DNA of 64,000 bases from Microcoleus sp. EPA2 (GTDB taxonomy: Bacteria; Cyanobacteriota; Cyanobacteriia; Cyanobacteriales; Microcoleaceae): positions 1 through 64,000 of the forward strand of contig JAHRFD010000014.1 of assembly GCA_020882975.1 (NCBI GenBank), written 5' to 3'. Within the stretch, counting starts at the first letter, position 1. The number at the start of each line of letters is the position of its first letter. Below the pieces are notes generated by a model, which was not told where the DNA came from, made no database searches, and saw only the letters and a program-made list of their open reading frames with translations. The position numbers and the translations under genes are program-made. This document shows, piece after piece, positions 6,700-18,123 of this stretch.

Positions 6700-7335
6700 T
6701 TAGAGTTCTCCCGATTTTTCTCTCGCCCATGCTCGCACGGCTTTACGCAAAGAAATGCGCCCATAATTACGATTTTGCTCGATTAATCCCGGTATTTCTT
6801 GTATCGGAAGAGTTGGAAAAATAGAACTATTTTGTACTTCTATATATTCTTTCCCCGACCGTTGGTAGATTTTGAGTTCACCCGAATCATAACACCAAAT
6901 TTCTGGCACACCCAACCGAGCATAAATGGGAAAACGACTGAGAGATTTACTTGTTACGTCTATTTCTAAAGCCAAATCCGGTGGTGGATCTTGTTCCAAA
7001 TTAAACTGGAGTTTGCCGCGAATTTTTGACTCATTCTGGAAGTAGAAACAATTGTCTGGTTCTACCCCAGCTTTTTCGATTTCTCGCTTCCAAGTGGTTG
7101 AGCCTAAGCTTTCATAATCTTGCTCCAACACTTCTGCGATATCTTGAATGGAAATGCCGATCGTTTCTTTGTAGTATTCATGTTCGGGTAATGGTGTCAT
7201 AATTTCTAAAGTTCCATTATCATAGGCGAATCTAGCAGCACGGCTTTCACCGAGATCCGCAAGCAACTTCTCAAATTGTTGCCAACTGATATTATATAGA
7301 ACTACTCGATCGGCACGAGGTTTGGTTAGTAGCAT
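6700..7335 (-). CDS. Uma2 family (DUF820) putative endonuclease
   Basis: A 211-residue member of the Uma2/DUF820 family, greatly expanded in filamentous cyanobacteria. The PD-(D/E)xK-like core is visible as PPDLALEIDVTSKS (Asp and Glu about residues 118 and 122), followed by YARLGVPEIWCYD. The N-terminal half holds the family's GTLEIMTPLPEHE strand region. It is related to restriction-type nucleases and often acts in mobile or defence contexts, but most members are uncharacterised. GAGAAAAAG precedes the ATG. It is a single gene. Confidence 0.85.
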   Translation of the reverse strand: MLLTKPRADRVVLYNISWQQFEKLLADLGESRAARFAYDNGTLEIMTPLPEHEYYKETIGISIQDIAEVLEQDYESLGSTTWKREIEKAGVEPDNCFYFQNESKIRGKLQFNLEQDPPPDLALEIDVTSKSLSRFPIYARLGVPEIWCYDSGELKIYQRSGKEYIEVQNSSIFPTLPIQEIPGLIEQNRNYGRISLRKAVRAWAREKSGEL

Positions 7336-7545
7336 AACTTTTTCTCAAAACTTTTTGATAGGTAATCCTATTATAGCCGAAGGAAATTCGGCAACGGATT
7401 TGGCTCCCATCAAGGACATCCCCTTGACAGAAGAAGAAAAGACACAGAAAAGGACAGAGAGTATTCATATCTCCTGAAATAAAACTCAGTTAAATTCATC
7501 CGTCTCTCCCTGTCCGAATCCGTGTCGTTCCCGAATTCCTTCTTC

Positions 7546-8670
7546 TTAAAATCCCATCGCCCCAGCTACCGCATCCAAAGTCGGAGCAATGCCATTTTTA
7601 AACTGATTGTTGCTGTGATTAATTGCCGTATCTGGGTCTTTTAAACCATTACCAGTCAGCACGCAAACTACCGTTGCTCCCGTGGGAACTTGGTCTTTTA
7701 CCTTCAGCAAACCGGCCACAGAAGCTGCACTCGCAGGTTCGCAGAAAATCCCTTCCTGGGATGCTAACAAACGGTAAGCATCCAGAATTTCAGCGTCGGT
7801 GACAGCACTAAAACTGCCGCGGCTGGCTTCCGAAGCTGCCACAGCCTGTGTCCAACTAGCTGGGTTGCCGATCCGAATCGCTGTCGCCAGAGTTTCTGGG
7901 TGCGACACGGGCGATCCACTCACCAAAGGTGCAGCCCCCGCCGCCTGAAATCCCATCATCTTTGGCAAGCGGGAACATTTTTTCGCTTGATGGTATTGAC
8001 AAAAACCCATCCAGTATGCTGTGATGTTTCCCGCATTTCCTACGGGAATGCACAGCCAGTCTGGGGCATCGCCCAAAGCATCAACGACTTCAAAAGCGCC
8101 GGTTTTTTGGCCTTCCAATCGGTAAGGATTCACCGAATTGACCAACGTCACCGGGTAGTTAACGGCCATTTCCCGGACTATTTCTAAAGCCCGATCGAAA
8201 TTTCCTTGAATCGAAATCACTTCCGCACCGTAGAGCAAAGCTTGGGCCAACTTGCCCAAAGCCACGTAACCTTCGGGAATCAATACGAAAGCTCGCATCC
8301 CCCCACGTCGGGCGTAGGCGGCTGCTGCTGCGGAAGTATTGCCCGTACTGGCGCAAATTACTGCCTTGGCACCTGCTTCCTTGGCCTTGGAAATCGCCAT
8401 TGTCATCCCCCGGTCTTTGAAACTACCAGTGGGGTTGAGGCCGTCGTATTTGACTAGGACTCGCACGTCTCTACCGATGAGAGCGGCGATCGCAGGTGCT
8501 GGAATCAGGGGAGTGTTGCCTTCTTGGAGTGTCACTACCGGCGTAGTTTCCGTCACCGGCAGGTAGGGGCGATAAGCTTCGATTAAGCCCGGCCAGCCGT
8601 AGTGTTTTGGCATGACTGCGCGGGCAGCAGGGTTATGAGCAGAGTCAGTTACAGGTAGAATCAGGGTCAC
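7546..8670 (-). CDS. thrC: threonine synthase
   Basis: A 374-residue PLP enzyme converting O-phosphohomoserine to threonine, cytoplasmic. Visible motifs are the PLP lysine in TGSFKDRGM (Lys85), the substrate-binding [17 protein letters not shown], the phosphate loop IPVGNAGNI and the C-terminal [13 protein letters not shown]. Its length matches the compact class of bacterial threonine synthases (about 350-375 residues). The gene is divergent from the small gene at 8792, with about 120 bp between them for both promoters. The identification is secure. Confidence 0.95.
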
Positions 8671-8791
8671 GATGTCAATGGTTTTGAGGCAATGGCCAAG
8701 GAATTTACACCAATTTTAGCTCGATCGGTTAATTTGATGTTTAATACGATCGGTTCAGGTTAAAGTAACTTAATGGTGTGAATGTGTAGAT

Positions 8792-9079
8792 ATGTCTACC
8801 CAATTACTAATGTCAAATAATTCATCCACTCTTTCTCGGCCTCAAATCACGGCTAGCAATCCCGAAATGGCTAGTGCTTCTGCCCTACCGACCGGTTTGA
8901 CCCGGAAAGTAGAGTCTGCGAAGTCTCCGTATCAAGCCGACCACCAAGTTAAATTTCTGCACCTGCAAGCAGAAATCGAATCCTTGCTGCTACAAGTGCA
9001 AACCCTCAAACAGCAACGCTCTGTTGCTGGCTCTCAAGTTGCGATCGGCCAAAATTCTGCAGGTAGCAACAACAATTAG
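8792..9079 (+). CDS. small hypothetical protein with C-terminal coiled coil
   Basis: A 95-residue protein. The first 45 residues are Ser/Thr/Ala-rich and probably disordered. Residues 48-76 (VKFLHLQAEIESLLLQVQTLKQQ region) have a leucine heptad pattern that should form a short coiled coil. The tail is Asn/Gly/Ser-rich. It resembles small conserved cyanobacterial proteins of unknown function. There is no recognisable Shine-Dalgarno sequence before the ATG. It lies divergent to thrC. Confidence 0.6.
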   Translation: MSTQLLMSNNSSTLSRPQITASNPEMASASALPTGLTRKVESAKSPYQADHQVKFLHLQAEIESLLLQVQTLKQQRSVAGSQVAIGQNSAGSNNN

Positions 9080-9327
9080 TAGTAGCAACTCGTGCTAATT
9101 GTGCCGCCCCTGTGGTATAAAAAGTAAAGTTTTGTTGACCGCAGTGTTTTTTTAACCAAAAGCGCTAGCCAATTAATCTGCGGCTAGCGATAGCTAGCAT
9201 TTGTTAAAACGCGCTTCTTAAAACGCGATCGCCTACCTAAACTAGCCTGGTGCTGACTTGCAGCAGGCGACATGGTACTGCGTTAATTTTGTGACCGGTT
9301 CTACTGGTACAGGGAAAATCTAGATCG

Positions 9328-9350
9328 ATCCCCAACTTCTAGTTGGGGAT
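9328..9350 (+). promoter_or_regulatory. perfect 10-bp hairpin in the desA leader
   Basis: ATCCCCAACT pairs perfectly with AGTTGGGGAT around a three-base TCT loop. It ends 23 nt before the desA ATG and about 16 nt before the presumed ribosome binding site (GAGAG). Being in the 5' untranslated region of a desaturase gene, whose family is typically cold-induced, it may affect mRNA stability or translation. Structure is seen; function is inferred. Confidence 0.5.
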
Positions 9351-9373
9351 TTCCAAACATTCCAAGAGAGTTT

Positions 9374-10426
9374 ATGACAGCATCGATCGAAAAACCACTA
9401 AATTTGACATCCGCAAGTGACACTTCCAACTTGCGCCTCAAAGATATTCTCAAAACCCTGCCGCGGGAAGTATTCGTCAAAAACCCCCGCAAAGCTTGGA
9501 CAAAAGTCATCATCAACGTTTTGCTAGTTGCTGTCGGTTACTGGGGCCTAGCAGTATCCCCTTGGTTTCTACTACCCCTGATGTGGATTTTCACAGGTAC
9601 TGCATTGACCGGTTTTTTTGTGATCGGCCACGACTGCGGACACCGGTCATTTTCTAACCGCCGCTGGGTAAACGATTTAGTCGGACATCTAGCATTTTTG
9701 CCATTAATTTACCCGTTTCACGCATGGCGTCACGGACACAATTATCACCACAAGCATACCAACAAAATTGGAGAAGATAATGCTTGGCAGCCCATGAGAG
9801 CAGAAGACTACGCTGCTGCTCCCAAGGCTTTACAAATAGCTTATAGTTTAATTTTTGGTCCGCTATGGTGGGTAGGCTCGATCGCCCATTGGGCAAAAGT
9901 GCACTTCATGTGGTGGCGCTTCAAAGGCCAACAGAAACAAGAACAAGTCCGCTTTTCTGTGTTAGTGGTTTTAATCGGTGCTGCGATCGTATTTCCCACA
10001 CTAATTGCCACAACAGGCATCTGGGGATTCGTCAAATTTTGGTTACTGCCCTGGATGGTTTACCATTTCTGGATGAGCACATTCACGATTGTTCACCACA
10101 CCGCACCAGACATTTCATTCAAAGAACCTTCAGAATGGAATGAAGCCCAAGCGCAACTATCGGGAACAGTTCACTGCGATTATCCTCGCTGGGTAGAGTT
10201 CCTATGTCACGACATTAACGTCCACGTTCCCCACCACTTGTCAACAGCAATTCCCTGGTATAACTTGCGGCTAGCCCACAGTAGCTTGAAAGAAAATTGG
10301 CAAAATCATCTCTATGAAACCAAATTTTCTTGGTCTTTGATGAAGCGGATTGCCGACAACTGTCACCTCTACGATCCCGCGGGTGGCTATCTGACATTGG
10401 AAGATTTTAAAGCTCAAGCTAAGTAG
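9374..10426 (+). CDS. desA: acyl-lipid Delta-12 (omega-6) desaturase DesA
   Basis: A 350-residue membrane-bound desaturase that introduces the Delta-12 double bond into membrane lipid acyl chains. The three histidine boxes are present: HDCGH (86-90), HNYHH (122-126) and HVPHH (about 286-290). Between them are hydrophobic segments such as IIVNVLLVAVGYW-like 47-57 and FVKFWLLPWMVYHFWMS (key part WMVYHFWMSTF). The stretch NRRWVNDLVGHLAFLPLIYPFH is characteristic of the cyanobacterial DesA group rather than DesB. Expression is usually cold-regulated, and a strong hairpin lies in the leader. It is a single gene followed by a repeat-rich spacer. Confidence 0.92.
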   Translation: MTASIEKPLNLTSASDTSNLRLKDILKTLPREVFVKNPRKAWTKVIINVLLVAVGYWGLAVSPWFLLPLMWIFTGTALTGFFVIGHDCGHRSFSNRRWVNDLVGHLAFLPLIYPFHAWRHGHNYHHKHTNKIGEDNAWQPMRAEDYAAAPKALQIAYSLIFGPLWWVGSIAHWAKVHFMWWRFKGQQKQEQVRFSVLVVLIGAAIVFPTLIATTGIWGFVKFWLLPWMVYHFWMSTFTIVHHTAPDISFKEPSEWNEAQAQLSGTVHCDYPRWVEFLCHDINVHVPHHLSTAIPWYNLRLAHSSLKENWQNHLYETKFSWSLMKRIADNCHLYDPAGGYLTLEDFKAQAK

Positions 10427-10429
10427 TCA

Positions 10430-10634
10430 GCAGTCATTAGTCAGCAGTCATTAGCTATTGGTTATTGGTGTCGCCCTGAGCGAAGCGTCGAAGGGTTATT
10501 GGTTATTGGTTATTTACTGTACCCAGCCCTTCGACTAGGCTCAGGAACCGCCTAGCGTCGCCAGCCAGCGAAGCGTCGAAGGGTTATTGGTTAAGAATTC
10601 CCAATTCCCAATTCCCAATTCCCAATTCCCAATG
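10430..10634. repeat. mixed short-repeat block (GGTTATT, CCCTTCGAC, AATTCCC units)
   Basis: It contains AGTCAGCAGTCATT repeats and GGTTATT heptamers. It also holds two inverted copies of a CCCTGAGCGAAGCGTCGAAGGG / CCCTTCGACTAGGCTCAGG element and ends in five AATTCCC heptamers touching the start of the nuclease-ParA gene. The block contains whatever promoter drives that gene. No coding sequence is visible. Confidence 0.7.
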
Positions 10635-10638
10635 AAAC

Positions 10639-12153
10639 ATGACTTTTAATCCCAATAACTGTCGCAACGAAAGCGAAGTAGAAACCAAACTAATTGTCAG
10701 CTATCTACTGCCAAAACTGGGCTATACCCCCGACAATTGGTACCAAGAAATAGCCTTTGGGAATATCCGTCTAGACTTCCTATCCTTCGCCACCCAAGTT
10801 CTCCCCATAGTCATCGATGCCGACTCGCCAATGAGCGTAGTAATTGAGGCGAAACATCCGAAGGAAAAATTAGACCGCCACATCAGGAGACTGAAACGTT
10901 ACTTAACAAGCTTAAACATTCGCTACGGACTGATCACCAATGCGAAAGAAATTAGAATATATGAAATAGCAGCCTCCGAGATTCAGCTAGTATTCAATTG
11001 CTCTGGCCAAGAACTTGAAACCAGAATCGATGAAATTATTGCTTTAATTGGCAGAGATAGTTTAAAAATAATCAAAAGTCCAGAAAATCTCGAACTAAAA
11101 GATAGTCAACTAAATTTAGTTACTCGTGATTTGACTAACGAAATAGCGATCGCTCTAAATCATCCAGCCAACGTCGAACCGCCACCAAATCCAATCTCCC
11201 AACCGGAAAATGTGCCAGAAATAGTGCCATTCGCTCCCGAAATTGTACCAAAAATAAAATTAGATCTAGTTGAACCCACAACCAGTCAAAATACTATGAA
11301 AATAATTGCTGTTTACCACAATAAAGGCGGAGTCGGCAAAACTACAACCGTAGTCAATTTAGCCGCCGCCCTCAGCAAGCAATGTAAAAGAGTCTTGGTG
11401 ATAGACTTAGACAGTCAAGCTAATACAACCTTTGCCACAGGTTTAGTCAAATTTGATGACGAAGAAGATGATGATTTGAAACAAAAAAATATTCTGCACA
11501 TCTTACAATCAGAGGATTTTTATTCAATATCAGAAGTAGCTAGAAAGTCTAATTTTTGCAGTCCAGCAATAGATGTAATTCCTTCTCACATTGATTTAAT
11601 GCAATATGAAACAGAACTAAACTCACTGGATTACAGTAGAATGATTCTGATACAGAAACTAGCAGAAGTACAAGATAAATACGATATTGTATTGATTGAT
11701 ACGCCACCGTCTTTAAATTTTTATGCCAGAGTTGCCCTGATTGCAGCCGATTATTTAATTATTCCTTCTGACTTAAAGCCTTTTGCGAATCAAGGATTAA
11801 TTAATGTCAAAGATTTTATCAAAAAAGTTAATGGATTTAAGAAACAAATCGGCAAAAATCCTCTACAGGTTTTAGGTGTACTTCCTTGTAAAATCTCAAC
11901 TAACGGTAAATTTATACAATACAGTTTGCCTAGGCGGAGGGATGCAATTCCCAAACGTTACGGTATAGAAATTATGGAAAGCGTAATTTATGAAAGAGAT
12001 GATTTGGCTAAGTGTGCAGAACAAACTCAAATATTCGGAGATATCGAAATTGCCGACCCTATCTCCGTGTTAGACTTTAAGCCAGATTCAATCGCATCCC
12101 AAGAGTTTGAAGTATTAGCAATGGAAGTCTTGGAAAAGATAGGTGAAAAATAA
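10639..12153 (+). CDS. PD-(D/E)xK nuclease-like (HsdR N-terminal type) domain fused to ParA ATPase
   Basis: A 504-residue fusion. Residues 1-115 resemble the type I restriction HsdR N-terminal domain. After ESEVETKLI come GNIRLDF (Asp46) and VVIEAKHP (Glu70, Lys72), the D...ExK arrangement of PD-(D/E)xK nucleases, then YGLITNAKEIRIYE. A Pro-rich linker (175-215) leads to a complete ParA/MinD-type ATPase. It has the deviant Walker A KGGVGKTT (229-236), DLDSQANTT (256-264), the Walker B-like LIDTPPS (352-358) and the region YLIIPSDLKPFANQG. ParA proteins move DNA or protein cargo using ATP and a ParB partner. A ParB-like gene follows with a TAATG overlap (coupled translation) and a second one after it. 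The ATG has no clear ribosome binding site. Confidence 0.85.
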   Translation: MTFNPNNCRNESEVETKLIVSYLLPKLGYTPDNWYQEIAFGNIRLDFLSFATQVLPIVIDADSPMSVVIEAKHPKEKLDRHIRRLKRYLTSLNIRYGLITNAKEIRIYEIAASEIQLVFNCSGQELETRIDEIIALIGRDSLKIIKSPENLELKDSQLNLVTRDLTNEIAIALNHPANVEPPPNPISQPENVPEIVPFAPEIVPKIKLDLVEPTTSQNTMKIIAVYHNKGGVGKTTTVVNLAAALSKQCKRVLVIDLDSQANTTFATGLVKFDDEEDDDLKQKNILHILQSEDFYSISEVARKSNFCSPAIDVIPSHIDLMQYETELNSLDYSRMILIQKLAEVQDKYDIVLIDTPPSLNFYARVALIAADYLIIPSDLKPFANQGLINVKDFIKKVNGFKKQIGKNPLQVLGVLPCKISTNGKFIQYSLPRRRDAIPKRYGIEIMESVIYERDDLAKCAEQTQIFGDIEIADPISVLDFKPDSIASQEFEVLAMEVLEKIGEK

Positions 12154-13073
12154 TGCAAAAATTATCCCCCTCGTTGGTAGCAGTAAAAAAGATTACATCT
12201 AAAGTTCCTCGTGACAATTTTGCCGATCGCGATTTGGAGAAAGTCGCCCAACTAATTTTAGAATTAGGAGGATTGATCAACCCCATAATTCTCCGGCGCA
12301 ACGGGATGGAAGCCTACGAGATAGTAGACGGAGACTTTGAATACTATGCGGCGGCGAAAGCCAGGGAAATCAACCCTATGAAAGGCGAGACCATCGGAGC
12401 ATTTATTCTGGAACCAGAAAATGAAGAACTTCTCCTAGAGCAGGTTAAAGCGCTGAGGAAATCAGCCCAAACTGGCAATTTAGTTGAAAGTCCAGAAACC
12501 GGGTTTTTTGACGAAAATACTTCATCGCAGCCCGCAGACTCCATAAAAAACCCGGTTTCTTTAGTCGAAGTCCCTAATTTATGTGAAAACGAAACTCCCG
12601 AAGATTCATCCAGTTTAGAACAGCGACTAACAAATATTGAAACTAGGTTAGAAAATCAAATTAATGAATTAAAAGCCGAGTACGCCCGCGAACAACAGGT
12701 TTTAGCCCAGAGTATAAAAGAAGTTGAAAACCGAATCTTACAACAAGTACCTCTGTTAGTTGAAGCTGGCTTAGCAAATAGAATTAATGAGTTGAAACCA
12801 GAGTCGCCGCCCAAAAAACAGGCGGTTGAAAACGTAACTTCCCAACCAATGTCGCTGTTATCAGCGCTCAATACTCTAGAGAAATCTGAACTTTCGGCGA
12901 CTTTTAAAGATGCTGGGCTGAAGCCTAAAGTAATCGAAACAATACTCGAAATAATACTCGAAGAGCGAGATGTGCGGCCGTTTGAGTCATTTACAAGTGC
13001 GGTGAAACGTATTGACGGGTTAACCGACAAAACAATGATTAAAATAATTGACAAGTGGCACAAATACTCATAA
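12153..13073 (+). CDS. ParB-like protein 1 with coiled coil
   Basis: A 306-residue protein whose ATG overlaps the stop of the ParA fusion by one base. Residues 8-75 look like a ParB/sulfiredoxin N-terminal domain (VPRDNFADRDLEKVAQLI, LINPIILRR, YEIVDGDFEYYAAAK). The GERR motif that binds CTP in ParB is replaced by GDFE. Residues 150-215 form a coiled coil. The C-terminal 70 residues are helical and end in FTSAVKRIDGLTDKTMIKIID, possibly a helix-hairpin-helix. Residues 114-136 are encoded by an inserted inverted repeat (12494-12560). It probably works with the upstream ParA as its partner or adaptor. It is not a standard chromosomal ParB: no helix-turn-helix is obvious. Confidence 0.7.
   Translation: MQKLSPSLVAVKKITSKVPRDNFADRDLEKVAQLILELGGLINPIILRRNGMEAYEIVDGDFEYYAAAKAREINPMKGETIGAFILEPENEELLLEQVKALRKSAQTGNLVESPETGFFDENTSSQPADSIKNPVSLVEVPNLCENETPEDSSSLEQRLTNIETRLENQINELKAEYAREQQVLAQSIKEVENRILQQVPLLVEAGLANRINELKPESPPKKQAVENVTSQPMSLLSALNTLEKSELSATFKDAGLKPKVIETILEIILEERDVRPFESFTSAVKRIDGLTDKTMIKIIDKWHKYS
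12494..12560. repeat. 16-bp inverted repeat inside the ParB-like gene
   Basis: AGAAACCGGGTTTTTT at 12494-12509 and its exact reverse complement at 12545-12560 flank 35 bp. The element belongs to the dispersed GAAACCGGGTTT family also seen at 2539-2608, 41782-41814 and 63683. It reads through in frame and encodes about residues 114-136 of ParB-like protein 1. Confidence 0.75.
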
Positions 13074-13088
13074 CTCGCAATTCCTGTA

Positions 13089-13218
13089 GCGTGTTTTCTT
13101 GCCTTTCCAATTAGGTTCAGATCCCCCTAAATCCCCCTTAATAAGGGGGACTTTGAATGCTCTTGTTCCCCCCTTGTTAAGGGGGGCTAGGGGGGATCTC
13201 CGGGTCAATAAAACACGC
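13089..13218. repeat. MITE-like palindromic element between the two ParB-like genes
   Basis: A 79-bp nested palindrome (13120-13198) starts and ends with GATCCCCC / GGGGGATC and contains two inner stems (CCCCCTTAATAAGGGGG and CCCCCCTTGTTAAGGGGGG). Outside it, GCGTGTTTT (13089-13097) and AAAACACGC (13210-13218) are terminal inverted repeats. Almost the same palindrome lies at 23070-23150 in the opposite orientation. It is probably a non-autonomous mobile repeat; it separates two genes that otherwise look like one operon. Confidence 0.6.
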
Positions 13219-13451
13219 TCTGCGCCCACTGGGAACGTTAGCCCAGTGAGGCTCCACACTAACAAAAGTAAAGATGAGTTAAGCAATGTATCATTGGTGT
13301 CCCCCAGCCAGTTAAACTCATCACAGTCGCTTGTTTTAGGAATTGCAGTAACTTTTGTCGATCGCCAGGGATGTCGCCCCACGGAAGCCGCGTAGATATA
13401 CATAAATCCCTAAAACACCTAATTTTTATAAAAAAGGGGGTTTTTAACAAG

Positions 13452-14510
13452 ATGGAGCGATCGCAAGATCAAAACCGAATAATTGAATATTTGCGGATTA
13501 AGCCAATTAGTCACAGTCAAATTTACACTTCCCAAATTGCGATACCAGAGACTCAGCGGGGCGAAATTATCCGCGATCGCCGCGAAGCTCTCAGAAGAAG
13601 TCTAATTGAGCAAGGGAGCAACTTGATTCCTTTAATTGTACGCCCCACAGAAGCTTACAGCAACGAAGAAGAATACGAAGTTGTCTGCGGTGCTGATTGG
13701 TGCATAGTTGCTAAAGAACTTGGCCTCGCACAAATGTGGGCTTGGGTGTTTGAAATGACCGATGAGGAAGTAGCTGCTGCTCAAACAGAAATGGAACTTT
13801 TAGCTCCACAGCCAACTCAAAAAACAGCCCAAATTGAGAGTCTACTGCAACAATTTGAGCTATCATTTCAAAAAAAAGTAGAAAGTCTAACAAAACAAAT
13901 AGAACACTCAATAAAAAAAAATGAAGACCTGCTCAAAAAACAAGTAAAAGCTCTAACTGAGCAGAAGTTAGAGGGCGACAAAATAGAACAGATTAGGATT
14001 GTAATCGAAGAAATTGAACAAACATTTAACAAAAAGGTAGACAAATTGGCTAAAAAAATTGAGCGATCTGGCATCAATATTCCTCCCACGTCTGCTGCGA
14101 TGGATGAGATGAATCTGGAAGGTGCGTTAACACTGTTGGATGAATTCGAGAAATTGCTGTCAATTAAATTAGAATTCACCGTCGAAACAATTAATCAGTT
14201 TGTGGCGGAGGCAATTACAGGTCTAGAATCAGACCTGAAAAATCAAATTGCAAGGCTCCGTCACCAACTTGGAGGCACCGTCCACAACTCTGGAATACCA
14301 CCAGAGACCAAGCCGAAAACTAAGTCTAAAACACAGCCCAAAAAACCGTTTTTGCCACAATTACCGCCGTTGCAATCCCCACCAGAAGACTACGACAGTC
14401 TCTCCCTCAGACGCTTGAAGGCGATCGGCAAAGAGCGGAAATTGCGAGGTTATGCACGGATGAAACGACCAGAAATTCTGGCTGCTCTCAAACGCATTGA
14501 CGGTAAATAA
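13452..14510 (+). CDS. ParB-like protein 2 with long coiled coil and SAP/Rho-N-like end
   Basis: A 352-residue protein. I start it at the ATG at 13452 (MERSQDQNRI) because the frame further upstream lies in repeat DNA. Residues 25-100 resemble a ParB N-terminal domain (IAIPETQRGEIIRDRREALRRSL, key part IIRDRREALRRSL; LIPLIVRP; YEVVCGADWCIVAKELGL). GADW stands where ParB has GERR. Residues 122-275 form a long Lys/Glu-rich coiled coil. Residues 313-350 (SLSLRRLKAIGKERKLRGY...) look like a SAP or Rho N-terminal helix-extended loop-helix domain, which usually binds nucleic acid. With the ParA fusion and ParB-like protein 1 it forms an unusual cluster. The function is unknown. Confidence 0.7.
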   Translation: MERSQDQNRIIEYLRIKPISHSQIYTSQIAIPETQRGEIIRDRREALRRSLIEQGSNLIPLIVRPTEAYSNEEEYEVVCGADWCIVAKELGLAQMWAWVFEMTDEEVAAAQTEMELLAPQPTQKTAQIESLLQQFELSFQKKVESLTKQIEHSIKKNEDLLKKQVKALTEQKLEGDKIEQIRIVIEEIEQTFNKKVDKLAKKIERSGINIPPTSAAMDEMNLEGALTLLDEFEKLLSIKLEFTVETINQFVAEAITGLESDLKNQIARLRHQLGGTVHNSGIPPETKPKTKSKTQPKKPFLPQLPPLQSPPEDYDSLSLRRLKAIGKERKLRGYARMKRPEILAALKRIDGK

Positions 14511-14529
14511 AATCGAGGGAATACCAAGC

Positions 14530-14556
14530 TACCCGAATTCTTAAATAATTCGGGTA
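14530..14556. terminator. terminator between ParB-like 2 and the ligase gene
   Basis: TACCCGAATT pairs with AATTCGGGTA (10 bp) around a 7-nt loop, in the short spacer between two convergent genes. A T-rich TTTA follows on the plus strand. It probably works for both directions. Confidence 0.65.
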
Positions 14557-14603
14557 TTTAACACAGATATTAAAACATTGCTAAAATACTGTATCAAAAC
14601 AGA

Positions 14604-16166
14604 TTAGTGCCGAGTATATCGATGCTTCACACCCATAGGAAAATACTCCGAATCCCCCGTTGCAGTTAGCGTCACAATGGGTAATTGATATTCTGGCGGT
14701 ACATAGTTGGCAAATTCGCTGTTTAGCCGCCGCAATTGTGAGAGAATAGAAGATGCGATCGCCCTTTTTTTCTCCTCATCACCATCCACCCCCGGTGCTA
14801 ATTCCACAACCACAGATAAAAACCGATTTCGATCGGAATCCTCCCTAACTTGCAGCACAAACTTTCCCGTCACCCATTCCCGAATGGTGGGAACCTCTAA
14901 ACCGACGGTGACATTTTCTGGGTAAATGTTAGCACCGAAGTAGGAAACCGTAAAGTGCGATCGCCCAAATACATAGACAAAGGGTAGCCGTCGAATCCCT
15001 CTAGGAAAATCTGAATTTGGCAATAAATTTAAAGCTGCTGCTGCTTGCAAATGTTCCCCAGGGTTAAATCCCCATGCAGCTAAAAAATCGAGCATTGCTT
15101 CATAAGAAATTAAGCCACCATTGTCAGAAATATGATAACGTATTAATGGGATGCCATTGTCTCCAGAAAATAGCAATGTACCATCATCATTCACTTCAAA
15201 AAAGCGACTGTTCGGATCGTACTGCATCAAGCTGGGCAACCGCGATTCTCCAAATAAATTGCGTGCAGCTTCAGGATTATTTGCTAAAAAGTGGCGGATG
15301 CAAATACTCAGCGGTGTCTCGTTAGCTAAAACTCCTGCATCGGCAGTGCCGTAAAGGCTAGCAGAGTTGTAATATAGATTGGGAGAATGAGTGCGATCGC
15401 TAACCAAACTCCGCCATTCTTCGCTAAAAACTTCCCCCGCAAACACCATCTTAATTCCATATTTTTCCCACTCCACACCCGCAGCAATGCCACTATCAAT
15501 GACATCCTTAATAAAGGGTGGATATCCTAACAATACCACTTGCTCAAAATCCGCTCCAAGTTCCTGCACAACCCGCAATATTTCTGTTTTATTATTTCCC
15601 GGTGTTACCACCGTCACTGGATAACCTTTACTCGCTAAATGGCGGCAACAATTCGCGGTATACATTCCCCCCACCCAAGTCCCCAACGCAAAGCATATCA
15701 CAGCTAAAGTTGAACGAGTATCGGCGTAAAAACTGTCATAAAATATTTGTTCAAAGCGAGTAGCAATTTGCAACTCATCGCTGAGGAAGCGCGGCCAAAA
15801 AGTGGGTTTTCCTGTGGAACCAGAAGAAACAGCAATGAAATCGCAAGTTTCTAATTTACCACCGCGACACAACTCAGCTAGTCGGTGACAGCGCAAATAA
15901 TTGTCTTTAGTAATTAGTGGCAATTTTTGGAAGTCTTCAAAGCTTTGAATCTCCGCAGGATTAATGTTATGTTTAGCTAAAAAAGTTTGGTAAGCGGGAA
16001 CAGTTACAGCGACGTTTTGAAAAAGTGCCTGAAGCCCAGCTATTCCCCAGGGAATCTCAACTGTTTCAGGAGAAGCTTCCTGCTGTTGTTGCAATCGTTT
16101 TTCCAGGGCTGTGTTCCAAAACTCTTGATATGCTTTCTCAGCTCGTTGACGCTGTTCTTTCTGCAT
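14604..16166 (-). CDS. phenylacetate-CoA ligase-like (PaaK/CapK) AMP-binding protein
   Basis: A 520-residue adenylate-forming enzyme. The ATG at 16166 is chosen because AGGAGGAAAAA directly precedes it. The ATP-binding loop is visible as VSSGSTGKPTFWPR (about 115-128). Later motifs include YYNSASLYGTADAG (the YGxTE-like region) and LIRYHISDNGG. It resembles the PaaK/CapK group, which activates aryl or other carboxylic acids as acyl-AMP or CoA thioesters, but the substrate cannot be told from sequence. It lies 58 bp downstream of the histidine kinase gene on the same strand and may be cotranscribed with it. Confidence 0.75.
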   Translation of the reverse strand: MQKEQRQRAEKAYQEFWNTALEKRLQQQQEASPETVEIPWGIAGLQALFQNVAVTVPAYQTFLAKHNINPAEIQSFEDFQKLPLITKDNYLRCHRLAELCRGGKLETCDFIAVSSGSTGKPTFWPRFLSDELQIATRFEQIFYDSFYADTRSTLAVICFALGTWVGGMYTANCCRHLASKGYPVTVVTPGNNKTEILRVVQELGADFEQVVLLGYPPFIKDVIDSGIAAGVEWEKYGIKMVFAGEVFSEEWRSLVSDRTHSPNLYYNSASLYGTADAGVLANETPLSICIRHFLANNPEAARNLFGESRLPSLMQYDPNSRFFEVNDDGTLLFSGDNGIPLIRYHISDNGGLISYEAMLDFLAAWGFNPGEHLQAAAALNLLPNSDFPRGIRRLPFVYVFGRSHFTVSYFGANIYPENVTVGLEVPTIREWVTGKFVLQVREDSDRNRFLSVVVELAPGVDGDEEKKRAIASSILSQLRRLNSEFANYVPPEYQLPIVTLTATGDSEYFPMGVKHRYTRH

Positions 16167-16224
16167 TTTTTCCTCCTGAAAATACACATATATTGTTAGC
16201 CAAATTTTGATTTAATCAAGTTTT

Positions 16225-18123
16225 TTATAGGGCTAAACTTAAGTCTTGATTATTGCCGATAGGCAGTTCTATGATAAATTCTGTACTGTGATTTTCTCTT
16301 GAAATACATTTGAGTTTACCTCCATGCTTTTGGACTACTATTTGATGACAAATATATAATCCTAAACCCGTGCCTTCTCCCACAGGCTTAGTCGTAAAAA
16401 AAGGATCAAAAATTTGATTTTGAAATGCTTTCATAATCCCCATTCCATTGTCTAAAATACTAACAGATACACATTTACTATCTAAAATATTTGTACTAAT
16501 TTTGATAGTAGGCAAAGTTTCCCCATCCTTCAGGTCTCTTTTCATCCGTTTGTCTGCCAAAGCATCGATCGCATTAACAAGTATATTCATAAACACTTGA
16601 TTTAACTCAGAGACATAACATTCTATTTCTGGTAAACTACTATATTCTTTAATCACTTGAATGCTAAAATTTCCGCGATTAGATTGCAAGCGGTTATCCA
16701 AAATCATGAGGGTACTATCCAATCCCTCATGAATGTCTACTATCTTGACTTCCGACTCGTCCATCCGGGAAAAATTACGCAAAGATAAGACTATATTTTG
16801 AATTCTGTTTGTTCCTTTTTTCATAGAAGCTAAAACTTTCTGCAAATCTTGCATCGCAAACTCTAGATCTACTGCTTCTATGGCGTTTTGAATTTCTGGG
16901 GCTGGTTGAGGATAAAAATTTTGATACAATTTAACCAGCTCTAATAACTCTTGAGTATATCGATTAGCGTGAGCTAAATTTCCCCCAATAAAAGTAATCG
17001 GGTTGTTGATTTCGTGAGCAACTCCCGCCACTAATTGTCCCAAACTAGACATTTTTTCGTTGTGGATTAATTGAGCTTGTGCCTGCTGTAAGTCTAGTAA
17101 GGTTTTTTTCAGCTTTTGACTTTGAACTCGTAATCGATCCTCTACTTGCTGCCGTTGTGCGATCGCAGCATACAACATTAAATTAGTCAGTACCACAACC
17201 CCGATAAAAGACTGCAATAACACCAGAGATTCATTCAGATCGGGACGTACAAACGGTCCCCCACCGTTAACTGTTCCTAAAACAGCAATAGCCGAAACAA
17301 TAAATATTAATAATGTTGACCCTTTGATGTCAAAACGAAATACGGCCCATAGGATAAAAGGAATCATCATATACTCCACCGGATAGCCACCACCAAAAGC
17401 AACTTTACCGACGGCACATACCAGCAATATTAATAGAATAAATTCAGCCTGCTGTAACTGAAATGACAGAGATTTAAAATGTTTAAATCTCCGGTGGTAT
17501 TTTTGCTGGATTTGGGCATTGCCGAATTCAAACAATTCCTGAATAAGCTCTAAAAGTAGTGGACTCCAGATTAACAACAGAGGTGTAAAAATCAAAATCC
17601 CGCCTACATTAGACATCCACCATGTAAACCAGTTAGTTCCCCAATTTTCCAGAGGGACGATACCTCGCAAATAGAGAGTGGTAATACCGACTGTGGCACT
17701 GACAATGGGCCCACACATTCCCCCCATAATGACAAATCTGAACACACTTTGGGGGCGATCGAACAAATGGCGACTTCCGACAAACTTATGTAGCAGAAAA
17801 CTGCCTAAGATTGCCGATCCGCTAGTTCCCACAGCGATGCTAGAAGCAATGGCGATGGAAATAGCCACAGAAGCTGGATTTGTTTTGTCCAAAAAAGCCC
17901 AAATATTGGCAAAAAATGAACCGATCCAAATTCCAGGCCAAACGCGATATCCTACTAACAGGACGGCTGCTAAAGCGAATCCGTCAGGAGGCCAAACGGG
18001 AGTCACATTGTCAGGGGTGGATGCCAAAAATCGTCCCAATTCAGCGGTGCTGTAGTAGACAGCAGCTAAAACGGCAACTGCTGTCGAGTGCAGCAACCAT
18101 TTTGGTAGGGATAAAAAATTCAT
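16225..18123 (-). CDS. MASE1-domain sensor histidine kinase
   Basis: A 632-residue membrane sensor. The ATG at 18123 has GAGGG upstream. The N-terminal 320 residues form a MASE1 membrane sensor with about eight to nine helices (TPVWPPDGFALAAVLLVGYRVWPGI, key part VWPPDGFALA). A linker helix follows (ERQQVEDRL-like, about 325-355). The HisKA domain then has LGQLVAGVAHEINNPI, with phospho-acceptor His370. The HATPase part shows NILVNAIDAL, ILDNGMGI and FTTKPVGEGTGLGLYIC. No receiver domain or adjacent response regulator gene is seen. The ligand is unknown. It is divergent from a Ser/Thr kinase gene with a shared spacer of 177 bp. Confidence 0.9.
   Translation of the reverse strand: MNFLSLPKWLLHSTAVAVLAAVYYSTAELGRFLASTPDNVTPVWPPDGFALAAVLLVGYRVWPGIWIGSFFANIWAFLDKTNPASVAISIAIASSIAVGTSGSAILGSFLLHKFVGSRHLFDRPQSVFRFVIMGGMCGPIVSATVGITTLYLRGIVPLENWGTNWFTWWMSNVGGILIFTPLLLIWSPLLLELIQELFEFGNAQIQQKYHRRFKHFKSLSFQLQQAEFILLILLVCAVGKVAFGGGYPVEYMMIPFILWAVFRFDIKGSTLLIFIVSAIAVLGTVNGGGPFVRPDLNESLVLLQSFIGVVVLTNLMLYAAIAQRQQVEDRLRVQSQKLKKTLLDLQQAQAQLIHNEKMSSLGQLVAGVAHEINNPITFIGGNLAHANRYTQELLELVKLYQNFYPQPAPEIQNAIEAVDLEFAMQDLQKVLASMKKGTNRIQNIVLSLRNFSRMDESEVKIVDIHEGLDSTLMILDNRLQSNRGNFSIQVIKEYSSLPEIECYVSELNQVFMNILVNAIDALADKRMKRDLKDGETLPTIKISTNILDSKCVSVSILDNGMGIMKAFQNQIFDPFFTTKPVGEGTGLGLYICHQIVVQKHGGKLKCISRENHSTEFIIELPIGNNQDLSLAL

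Follow-up and report, generated by a model that had tools for sequence, protein, structure and literature searches.

The subject of this report is a locus at 10639-14510 in a 64,000-nucleotide stretch of Microcoleus sp. EPA2 DNA (the window: contig JAHRFD010000014.1, positions 1 to 64,000, forward strand). Three ORFs (open reading frames) on the + strand were confirmed there, encoding P1, in which an HsdR-type nuclease domain is joined to a ParA ATPase; P2, a ParB-fold protein; and P3, a second ParB-like protein. P1 and P2 are a conserved two-gene module, whose relatives fall into four types (P1 is of type 1; L and G numbers below denote loci and genomes). Types 1 and 2 take each other's place at a given chromosomal site, and P3 is a member of the family of partners of type-2 nuclease-ParA proteins, not a third part of P1-P2 by descent. 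The reading that we tentatively favour, although we give it somewhat less than an even chance, is that the module is a partition-derived, nuclease-armed system in conflict between DNA elements, whose partner controls or aims the nuclease.

The nuclease-ParA fusion

Residues 17-114 of P1 match the Pfam family HSDR_N_2 above its cut-off (E 2.7e-6), and residues 220-399 match AAA_31/ParA (E 9e-56). An earlier note on this DNA had described P1 as a nuclease-ParA fusion foreign to standard ParABS, with the nuclease residues D46, E70 and K72 and the ParA motif KGGVGKTT, overlapping a ParB-like gene by the letters TAATG. All of this holds: both domains and the ParB_N match of P2 pass the cut-offs, the residues are where it placed them, TAATG joins the stop of P1 to the start of P2, whose predicted fold is ParB-like, and the genome search described below finds the fusion widespread in cyanobacteria.

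At E <= 0.01, HSDR_N_2 is matched by all 36 of the N-terminal (N) domains scanned (34 of type 1, two of type 2), and 34 of the 36 match HSDR_N. In 52 aligned type-1 fusions E37 is invariant; D46, E70 and K72 are each retained in 51, and all three jointly in 50, the exceptions being L066, which lacks the D, and L088, which lacks the E and K. The ten type-2 domains aligned all have D, E, and K, with Q replacing E37, and the ExK motif is present in 13 of 13 type-3 rows and in all four type-4 rows (three of them read by eye as ENK). Within Microcoleus/Tychonema, the N domain has a median ratio of nonsynonymous to synonymous substitution rates (dN/dS) of 0.137, close to the 0.111 of ParA; in the linker the ratio is 0.57. 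The pairs compared are not independent of one another. The predicted nuclease site of P1 thus appears, from its sequence, to be intact and under selection. As AlphaFold2 left the domain unmodelled (residues 1-140 have a mean predicted local distance difference test score, pLDDT, of 23-47 per block of ten, which is low confidence), and a profile sequence search of the PDB with it returned no nuclease in ten hits, all at E 0.05 or worse, the putative PD-(D/E)xK fold is argued from profiles and motifs.

The ParA part has the deviant Walker A motif and signature lysine expected of ParABS, with K229, K234, D258, and D354 present in 40 of 40 rows of an alignment of P1 and its relatives (A1), while the linker before it (residues 144-214) has a mean conservation of 0.42. 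The best PHROGs match of P1 is phrog_164, "ParA-like partition protein." In PADLOC it matches the candidate family PDC-M28B (E 3e-10), over residues 214-258 only, around the ParA motif; type 3 gives the same family (E 9e-10, residues 100-214).

The ParB-fold partner

P2 matches ParB_N with E 2.4e-7, and ParB_N is found in 40 of 41 P2 relatives at E <= 0.01. When the PDB is searched by Foldseek with the predicted fold, the top matches include Noc, ParB, and KorB (E 6e-5 and up). The fold is followed by a predicted helix of 61 residues (AlphaFold2 pLDDT 72-94 over residues 151-210) and a C-terminal end predicted to be a helix bundle. Over the 41 relatives this end matches HHH_6 (11), DUF655 (11), Rho_N (8), or SAP (5): the C-terminal module of the partner is exchangeable, and of a nucleic-acid-binding kind (helix-hairpin-helix or Rho_N/SAP).

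Several marks of ParB proper were not found. The GxxR motif, given in a survey as the P motif with which ParB binds CTP (cytidine triphosphate; PMC12704722), is not recognizable: its R, at position 63, is present in 0 of 41 P2 rows, and at the equivalent site in P3 rows R is found in 0 of 15 and W in 15 of 15. The ParA-binding motif LG(R/K)GL is likewise in none of these 41 and 15 rows, but this is a poor test here, because the genome's own canonical ParB reads LGTS where the motif is expected. There is no ParB-type helix-turn-helix (HTH) in 25 of the 29 Pfam families listed for the 41 P2 members, nor among the families of 15 P3 members; the P2 families do include an Mga HTH hit in a single member. 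As for a parS site, no palindrome is common to more than 4 of 17 regions in the 350 bp upstream of P1, the only part searched.

The best PDB sequence match of the P2 profile is to residues 1338-1405 of 9k3a chain B (E 6e-9), ahead of Noc and Spo0J/ParB. This chain is a phage-type tail protein of 1717 residues that bears a domain like the ParB fold of P2. Separately, P2 weakly matches a tail protein of Anabaena phage A-4L (KF356198 21073-21324, E 0.2); that the two tail proteins are the same is a guess.

Distribution, types and plasmid relatives

Distribution was followed in 195 genomes of the order and in 386 sampled over the phylum. Type 1 was counted as places covering the ParA part, with N-domain-only rows and five type-2 rows excluded (G059 and G151 have N-domain-only rows alone, and so are not among them). 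There are 90 such places in 86 of the 195 genomes, and none was found in the other 109 at the cut-off used. A P2 match lies no more than 1.5 kb downstream at 83 of the 90, with a median gap of 9 bp, the count resting mostly on rows with E < 1e-20; the P2 rows retained are all in genomes that have a type-1 ParA.

Type 2, about 30% identical to P1, occurs in at least 12 genomes, and type 3 in 50 of 195, perhaps including a type-4-like match in G009 (34% identity). The EPA2 genome has its own copies of type 3 (L003) and type 4 (L004). Both share the two-gene plan of types 1 and 2; a partner was found in 11 of 12 type-3 loci examined, and the twelfth has a broken ParA. At least 127 of the 195 genomes have type 1, 2, or 3. 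Over the phylum sample, the type-1/2 N-domain model matches 64 of 386 genomes, one of them from another class. In a ParA tree, types 2, 3, and 4 each form a single branch (support 98/99 or better); type 1 and its nuclease-less members form another, within which the nuclease-less rows are scattered as repeated losses.

Types 3 and 4 also occur on plasmids, of 12.6 to 226 kb, in Nostoc sp. UHCC 0870, Pseudanabaena, and Leptolyngbya boryana. On the Pseudanabaena plasmid ABRG53g (12.6 kb; 18 annotated features, most hypothetical), which also bears a CyRepA1 replication gene, the annotation shows no par-like locus other than the type-4 pair; the three Nostoc plasmids with the module have ParM or other ParA/ParB genes elsewhere on them. 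These relatives are taken to mean that the module either descends from plasmids or is used by them; they do not prove partition. A further plasmid, pEu4 of Euhalothece (L098, 2599-4152), has a short ParA preceded by a separate gene of 222 codons, with a tblastn match to P1 spanning both; the pair may be an unfused version of P1.

A possible fusion outside the cyanobacteria, in Shinella, was rejected, the match being an ordinary Soj/Spo0J pair; the contig scan covered close relatives only. The record concerned (L241; Shinella sp. PSBB067, NZ_CP069303.1) is filed as a plasmid but is probably a chromosome, given its 4.6 Mb and the position of its canonical pair near a gene that we take to be gidA.

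Nuclease loss and partner retention

The 90 type-1 places were sorted by hand, leaving out three that are truncated. At 62 the nuclease is intact, and all 62 have P2. At 18 the nuclease is missing, mutated, or split and P2 is kept (three of these are split frames, possibly assembly errors). Seven places have no P2; in one of them, G096, the nuclease is mutated (E70K, K72T), and in the others it is missing. Fisher's exact test of nuclease intactness against P2 gives p = 8e-5, ignoring kinship. About eight lineages, counted by hand from genus labels, have lost or inactivated the nuclease while keeping P2 (one is a D46G change in three genomes of one genus), and none has lost P2 with its nuclease intact; the ParA tree, in which six rows are nuclease-less, implies a minimum of four changes among them. 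The 62 of 62 pattern is compatible with a partner that is obligatory for an active nuclease, as in restriction-modification or toxin-antitoxin systems, and equally with a ParA-P2 core to which the nuclease is a mere accessory.

P3, a member of the type-2 partner family

The start first listed for P3, at 13371, is probably too early: full-length Microcoleus/Tychonema orthologues begin at the ATG at 13452, giving 352 residues. The protein of the window, taken alone, matches ParB_N (E 9e-5) and Rho_N (E 0.003) under the Pfam cut-offs, but among its alignment members these families are found at E <= 0.01 in 14 and 13 of 15, respectively, and hhalign relates the P3 and P2 profiles with a probability of 96.6%, the coiled coil being included in the aligned part. 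The ParB-like domain and Rho_N/SAP-like end that the earlier note had seen in P3 are thus supported through its family, though not by the protein itself at these cut-offs, and the start has moved.

Searched at E <= 1e-8, the P3 profile finds 21 of the 195 genomes: all seven of the window's genus and 14 others. In ten of these 14 the P3 relative lies directly behind a type-2 ParA (L096, L097, L106, L108-L111, L113-L115). In the others, the type-2 ParA lacks its nuclease (G043, L107) or is split (G040, L087), only broken P3-like pieces remain (G153), or P3 has no type-2 ParA beside it (G056, L105); a second P3 copy in G098 (L112) also stands alone. On this distribution P1, P2, and P3, whose joint occurrence the earlier note had wanted searched for, were rejected as a single conserved system: P1 and P2 are linked, and P3 relatives mostly accompany type 2.

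It is possible, if on the doubtful side, that P3 nevertheless works as a third component for P1 instead of being a stranded type-2 partner, which would be compatible with the conflict reading. It is present in seven of seven genomes of the genus, about 0.6 kb or less behind P2 in five, and its dN/dS of 0.232 indicates purifying selection. Against this stand its association with type 2 outside the genus and its position within it, 3 kb off in G166 and on a separate contig in G109. Moreover, P3 is lacking in G190, where P1-P2 occupies the same place, and is present in G056, where P1 is lacking. Of 16 loci of the Microcoleus/Tychonema type, 12 have an intact P3; in L050 a contig end puts it out of reach. 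The gene is broken into two ORFs in two metagenome-assembled loci, L040 and L042, and no P3 was found in L045.

Replacement in place

Three pairs of loci have opposite types between shared flanks. In the first, from one genus, L097 (type 2) and L073 (type 1) have six flanking proteins that are 88-95% identical and in the same order, while their ParAs are 33% identical. Their DNA is 93% identical up to position 7013 of L097 and 89% identical over a 323-bp stretch, 7209-7530, that includes the last 256 bp of the partner gene; past the partner end, blastn similarity is absent as far as 9766, a little upstream of where ParA starts (9679), after which identity is 89-92%. The partners have 52 of their last 66 aligned residues in common, and little in the ParB domain. 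In the second pair, L106 (type 2) and L064 (type 1), also of one genus, the flanks are 73-87% and the partner end 69% identical, with only short repeat-like blastn matches between flank and partner end. The third, L114 and L060, is from different genera (flanks 59-81% protein identity), and only 8 of the last 25 residues of the partners are common. Because similarity resumes inside the partner gene in two of the pairs, ParA moves there with the ParB domain, and the C-terminal end stays at the locus.

The window shares with L064 and L106 an adjoining threonine synthase-like gene (81%) and a desaturase (66-67%), and the equivalent slot holds type 1 in L064, type 2 and a P3 relative in L106, and type 1 followed by P3 in the window. 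G056 has the desaturase and P3 but lacks an N domain of type 1 or 2, and also a type-2 ParA, for which its best match, 33% identical, lies on a different contig. Neither a type-2 N domain nor a type-2 ParA was found in the window's genus (seven genomes), cross-matches to P1 and other ParAs reaching 38-42% at best. The simplest history for the window is that a type-1 operon took the place of a type-2 operon, or settled next to it, and that the type-2 ParA was lost and its partner left behind. The desaturase of G140, which is of the same genus as L064 and L106, is flanked by an AAA ATPase, a small gene, and a Uma2-like gene, with no ParA module.

Several other genes at or near these slots may be recorded. 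The G140 ATPase (L282, 11051-12651) is of AAA_15/AAA_21 type and resembles HEC-01A, AbiLi, and AriA (PADLOC E 1e-20); with its neighbor of 163 residues it is a possible defence pair. Beside the lone P3 of G056 (L105, 2587-8257) a 3′-5′ exonuclease, a PD-(D/E)xK nuclease, and an FtsK/SpoIIIE translocase are fused in one protein, adjoined by an AAA_16 ATPase and a 287-residue protein without a Pfam match. A set consisting of a 280-350-residue protein (weak winged-helix-like hits, under cut-off) and two ATPases of about 700 residues (AAA_16, weakly, in the one scanned) recurs beside the module in L073, L097, L096, L060, L114, and L066. A separate ParA of about 300-400 residues lies beside the slot in L053, L059, L067, L073, L097, and L108, in several of them near a gene that is presumably an isoleucyl-tRNA synthetase. 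In G040, a type-1 ParA (L087, 8774-10345) has an N-terminus that by eye resembles a C-terminal piece of a helicase, with no nuclease, and beside it is a type-2 nuclease-ParA split into two ORFs, plus its partner (12083-14152).

Gene layout and neighborhood

Table 1. Features of the nuclease-ParA locus in the window.
Feature	Position	Strand	Description	Basis
P1	10639..12153	+	Type-1 nuclease-ParA fusion, 504 aa	90 type-1 ParA places in 86/195 genomes
P1 residues 1-143	10639..11067	+	HSDR_N_2 domain, putative PD-(D/E)xK	Pfam match, alignment, dN/dS
P1 predicted active-site codons	D46 10774-10776; E70 10846-10848; K72 10852-10854	+		Sequence
P1 residues 144-214	11068..11280	+	Variable linker	Conservation, dN/dS
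P1 residues 215-504	11281..12150	+	ParA ATPase	Pfam, AlphaFold, motif alignment
P1 deviant Walker A KGGVGKTT, signature lysine K229	11323-11346	+		
P2	12153..13073	+	ParB-fold partner of P1, 306 aa	
P2 residues 1-105	12153..12467	+	ParB/sulfiredoxin fold, GxxR motif absent	
P2 residues 153-213	12609..12791	+	One long predicted helix (coiled coil)	AlphaFold2
P2 residues 233-306	12849..13070	+	C-terminal helix-hairpin-helix-like module	AlphaFold2, Pfam matches of relatives
Inverted repeat, 31-nt arms, between P2 and P3	13119..13199	no strand	Perhaps a mobile intergenic repeat	Repeat search
P3	13452..14510	+	Apparently stranded partner of type-2 nuclease-ParA family, 352 aa	
P3 residues 1-125	13452..13826	+	ParB-like domain	Profile matches
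P3 residues 316-347	14397..14492	+	Rho_N/SAP-like end	Pfam matches of relatives

The window locus is chromosomal; a relative, L048, lies on the chromosome of Microcoleus vaginatus HSN003. Origin from an integrated plasmid, which the earlier note had offered as one explanation, or from a prophage was rejected because the flanking genes are ordinary chromosomal ones, shared across genera of the family, even though types 3 and 4 are found on plasmids. In PLSDB no record among the best 5000 matches covers 80% of P1; the P1 N domain matches two Thermus methylase genes and nothing else, P2 gives one weak match (39% over 74 residues, pOSC7112.01), and P3 none. In viral contigs the best 80 loci for alignment A1 match from residue 196 onward only, and no relative of type 3 was found; in phage records, the ParA part alone is matched in the 20 of 258 matches listed.

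An overlap with a defence island, another thing the earlier note had suggested looking for, was not borne out in the six neighbors scanned, among which the only defence-like gene is a putative endonuclease of Uma2 type (6700-7335). Another such gene lies near L043 (9651-10256), and the family is reportedly abundant in cyanobacteria (PMC2701414). An Rfam search of 8600-16300 matched no RNA element.

What the module might do

The in-place swaps, the retention of an orphan partner, the presence of more than one version in a genome, and the plasmid relatives are typical of loci in genetic conflict, and the conserved ParA motifs and ParB fold are typical of partition; together they suggest the conflict reading. 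The proposal of a role in defence or as a selfish element, made in the earlier note, fits the swaps and plasmid relatives, and is not helped by the PADLOC match, confined to ParA, or by neighbors that are ordinary apart from Uma2.

As a possible mechanism, the partner would sit on DNA through its C-terminal module and contact ParA through its ParB fold. ParA dimers bound to adenosine triphosphate (ATP) would spread on DNA, bringing two nuclease domains together. The partner might then license the DNA on which it sits, dismantling ParA there by a boost to its ATP hydrolysis, or might instead aim the nuclease; DNA in the wrong partner state (an incoming plasmid, a phage, a rival cassette) would be cut. 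P3, without its ParA, could be a remnant that gives immunity or licensing against type 2, or could serve P1 as a second partner. A bolder version, which we consider less likely than not, is ParA-based policing: the motor would carry the nuclease over the cell's DNA, the partner would license or target DNA, and recombination at one locus would exchange rival cassettes, with the displaced partner staying on as immunity, much like orphan methyltransferases or orphan immunity genes.

The main rival, not far behind, is a DNA-positioning or partition system, in which ParA and the partner move DNA or a nucleoprotein cargo and the nuclease is an accessory, resolving DNA or only binding it. We rate this at about one chance in three. 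The ParA motif residues, invariant in the alignment, the ParB fold of the partner, and the phrog_164 match all suit it, as do the lone par-like locus of ABRG53g and the repeated loss of the nuclease while ParA and P2 persist. The partner, however, shows no ParB-type HTH, GxxR, or LG(R/K)GL, and no widely shared palindrome was found in the 350 bp upstream of P1; swaps between versions 30% identical would be unexpected at a housekeeping segregation locus; and the window's genome already has a canonical-looking ParA/ParB pair (L002).

The conflict reading itself has to accommodate several observations that weigh against it. The nuclease is dispensable, so a ParA-P2 core with an accessory nuclease fits the pattern of losses equally well, and would also explain why P2 is rarely lost. 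The P2-less places are themselves few and uneven: four of the seven are in one genus, G061 is a ParA fragment, and G042 has just 1.1 kb of sequence downstream. One stray P2 match (G188:C5, E 7e-27), near a contig end, has no type-1 ParA listed beside it. P1 has no full-length match to any PADLOC defence family, only the ParA-region match to PDC-M28B and weak ones, and the scanned neighbors, among them the threonine synthase-like gene, the desaturase, and a histidine kinase, are mostly ordinary and form no defence island. P3 is broken or missing in the three loci mentioned above. Finally, G140 is a single genome and shares the desaturase-side flank only, and is therefore not a clean empty site.

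A role in chromosome maintenance or DNA repair in polyploid cyanobacteria, with the nuclease processing DNA while many copies segregate, seems unlikely. The locus is chromosomal, its flanks are common across genera, type 1 is in 86 of 195 genomes, and purifying selection is strong; yet type 1 was not found, at the cut-off used, in more than half of the genomes and is absent from some congeners, and it is replaced in place by another type or, in G140, by unrelated genes beside the desaturase. That the module is a decaying plasmid partition remnant without function, as the plasmid relatives and the loss of nuclease or P2 in some lineages might suggest, is very improbable: dN/dS lies at 0.11-0.17 in the N and ParA domains of P1 and in the ParB domain of P2, and 50 of 52 fusions retain the active site.

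The swaps and the stranded partner open a direct way to the purpose of the module. They predict which partner controls which nuclease, and that an orphan partner should be of consequence only in the presence of the other version.

Comparison with known systems

With chromosomal and plasmid ParABS (Soj/Spo0J, ParA/ParB) the module has in common a ParA of deviant Walker A type followed by a gene for a ParB-fold protein. It differs in the nuclease fused to ParA, and in a partner without HTH, GxxR, ParA-binding motif, or recognizable parS. With the N-terminal nuclease of HsdR in type I restriction (HSDR_N_2) it shares the domain family, the active-site pattern, and a conserved G-x-x-TNG-like segment. 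P1, though, has no helicase motor (superfamily 2, SF2, translocase), its nuclease being joined to ParA instead, and no HsdM or HsdS was found among the six scanned neighbors of the window locus.

The CTP-independent ParATS system of plasmid SCP2 is similar in pairing a partition ParA with a ParB-like partner; this partner, ParT, does without CTP and is entirely without an apparent CTPase domain (PMC12260392), and the word nuclease is absent from the text of that paper. Orphan ParB-like proteins and novel domain fusions, HNH-ParB among them, are covered by the survey of the ParB-CTPase fold (PMC12704722), which in the parts consulted reports no nuclease-ParA fusion; "HsdR" and "Rho_N" do not occur in the text. 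Partial texts on the antiplasmid system ApsAB and a type II toxin-antitoxin survey describe no ParA fusion, and searches of open-licence PubMed Central papers brought up none recognized as describing an HsdR-ParA fusion.

PADLOC's PDC-M28B, a candidate defence component, is like P1 a ParA-type ATPase with an N-terminal extension, but the match is confined to the region at or next to the Walker motif; no paper using that name was found. The McdAB system, which positions carboxysomes, is likewise a cyanobacterial ParA-type ATPase with a partner protein. McdA is not known to have a nuclease, nor McdB to be ParB-like.

ParA motors are known to move DNA and organelles. In the Cyanobacteriota, ParA is also stably coupled to a nuclease of the restriction type, and four or more diverged versions of this coupling exist; if the conflict reading is true, the module would link plasmid partition with restriction-like conflict.

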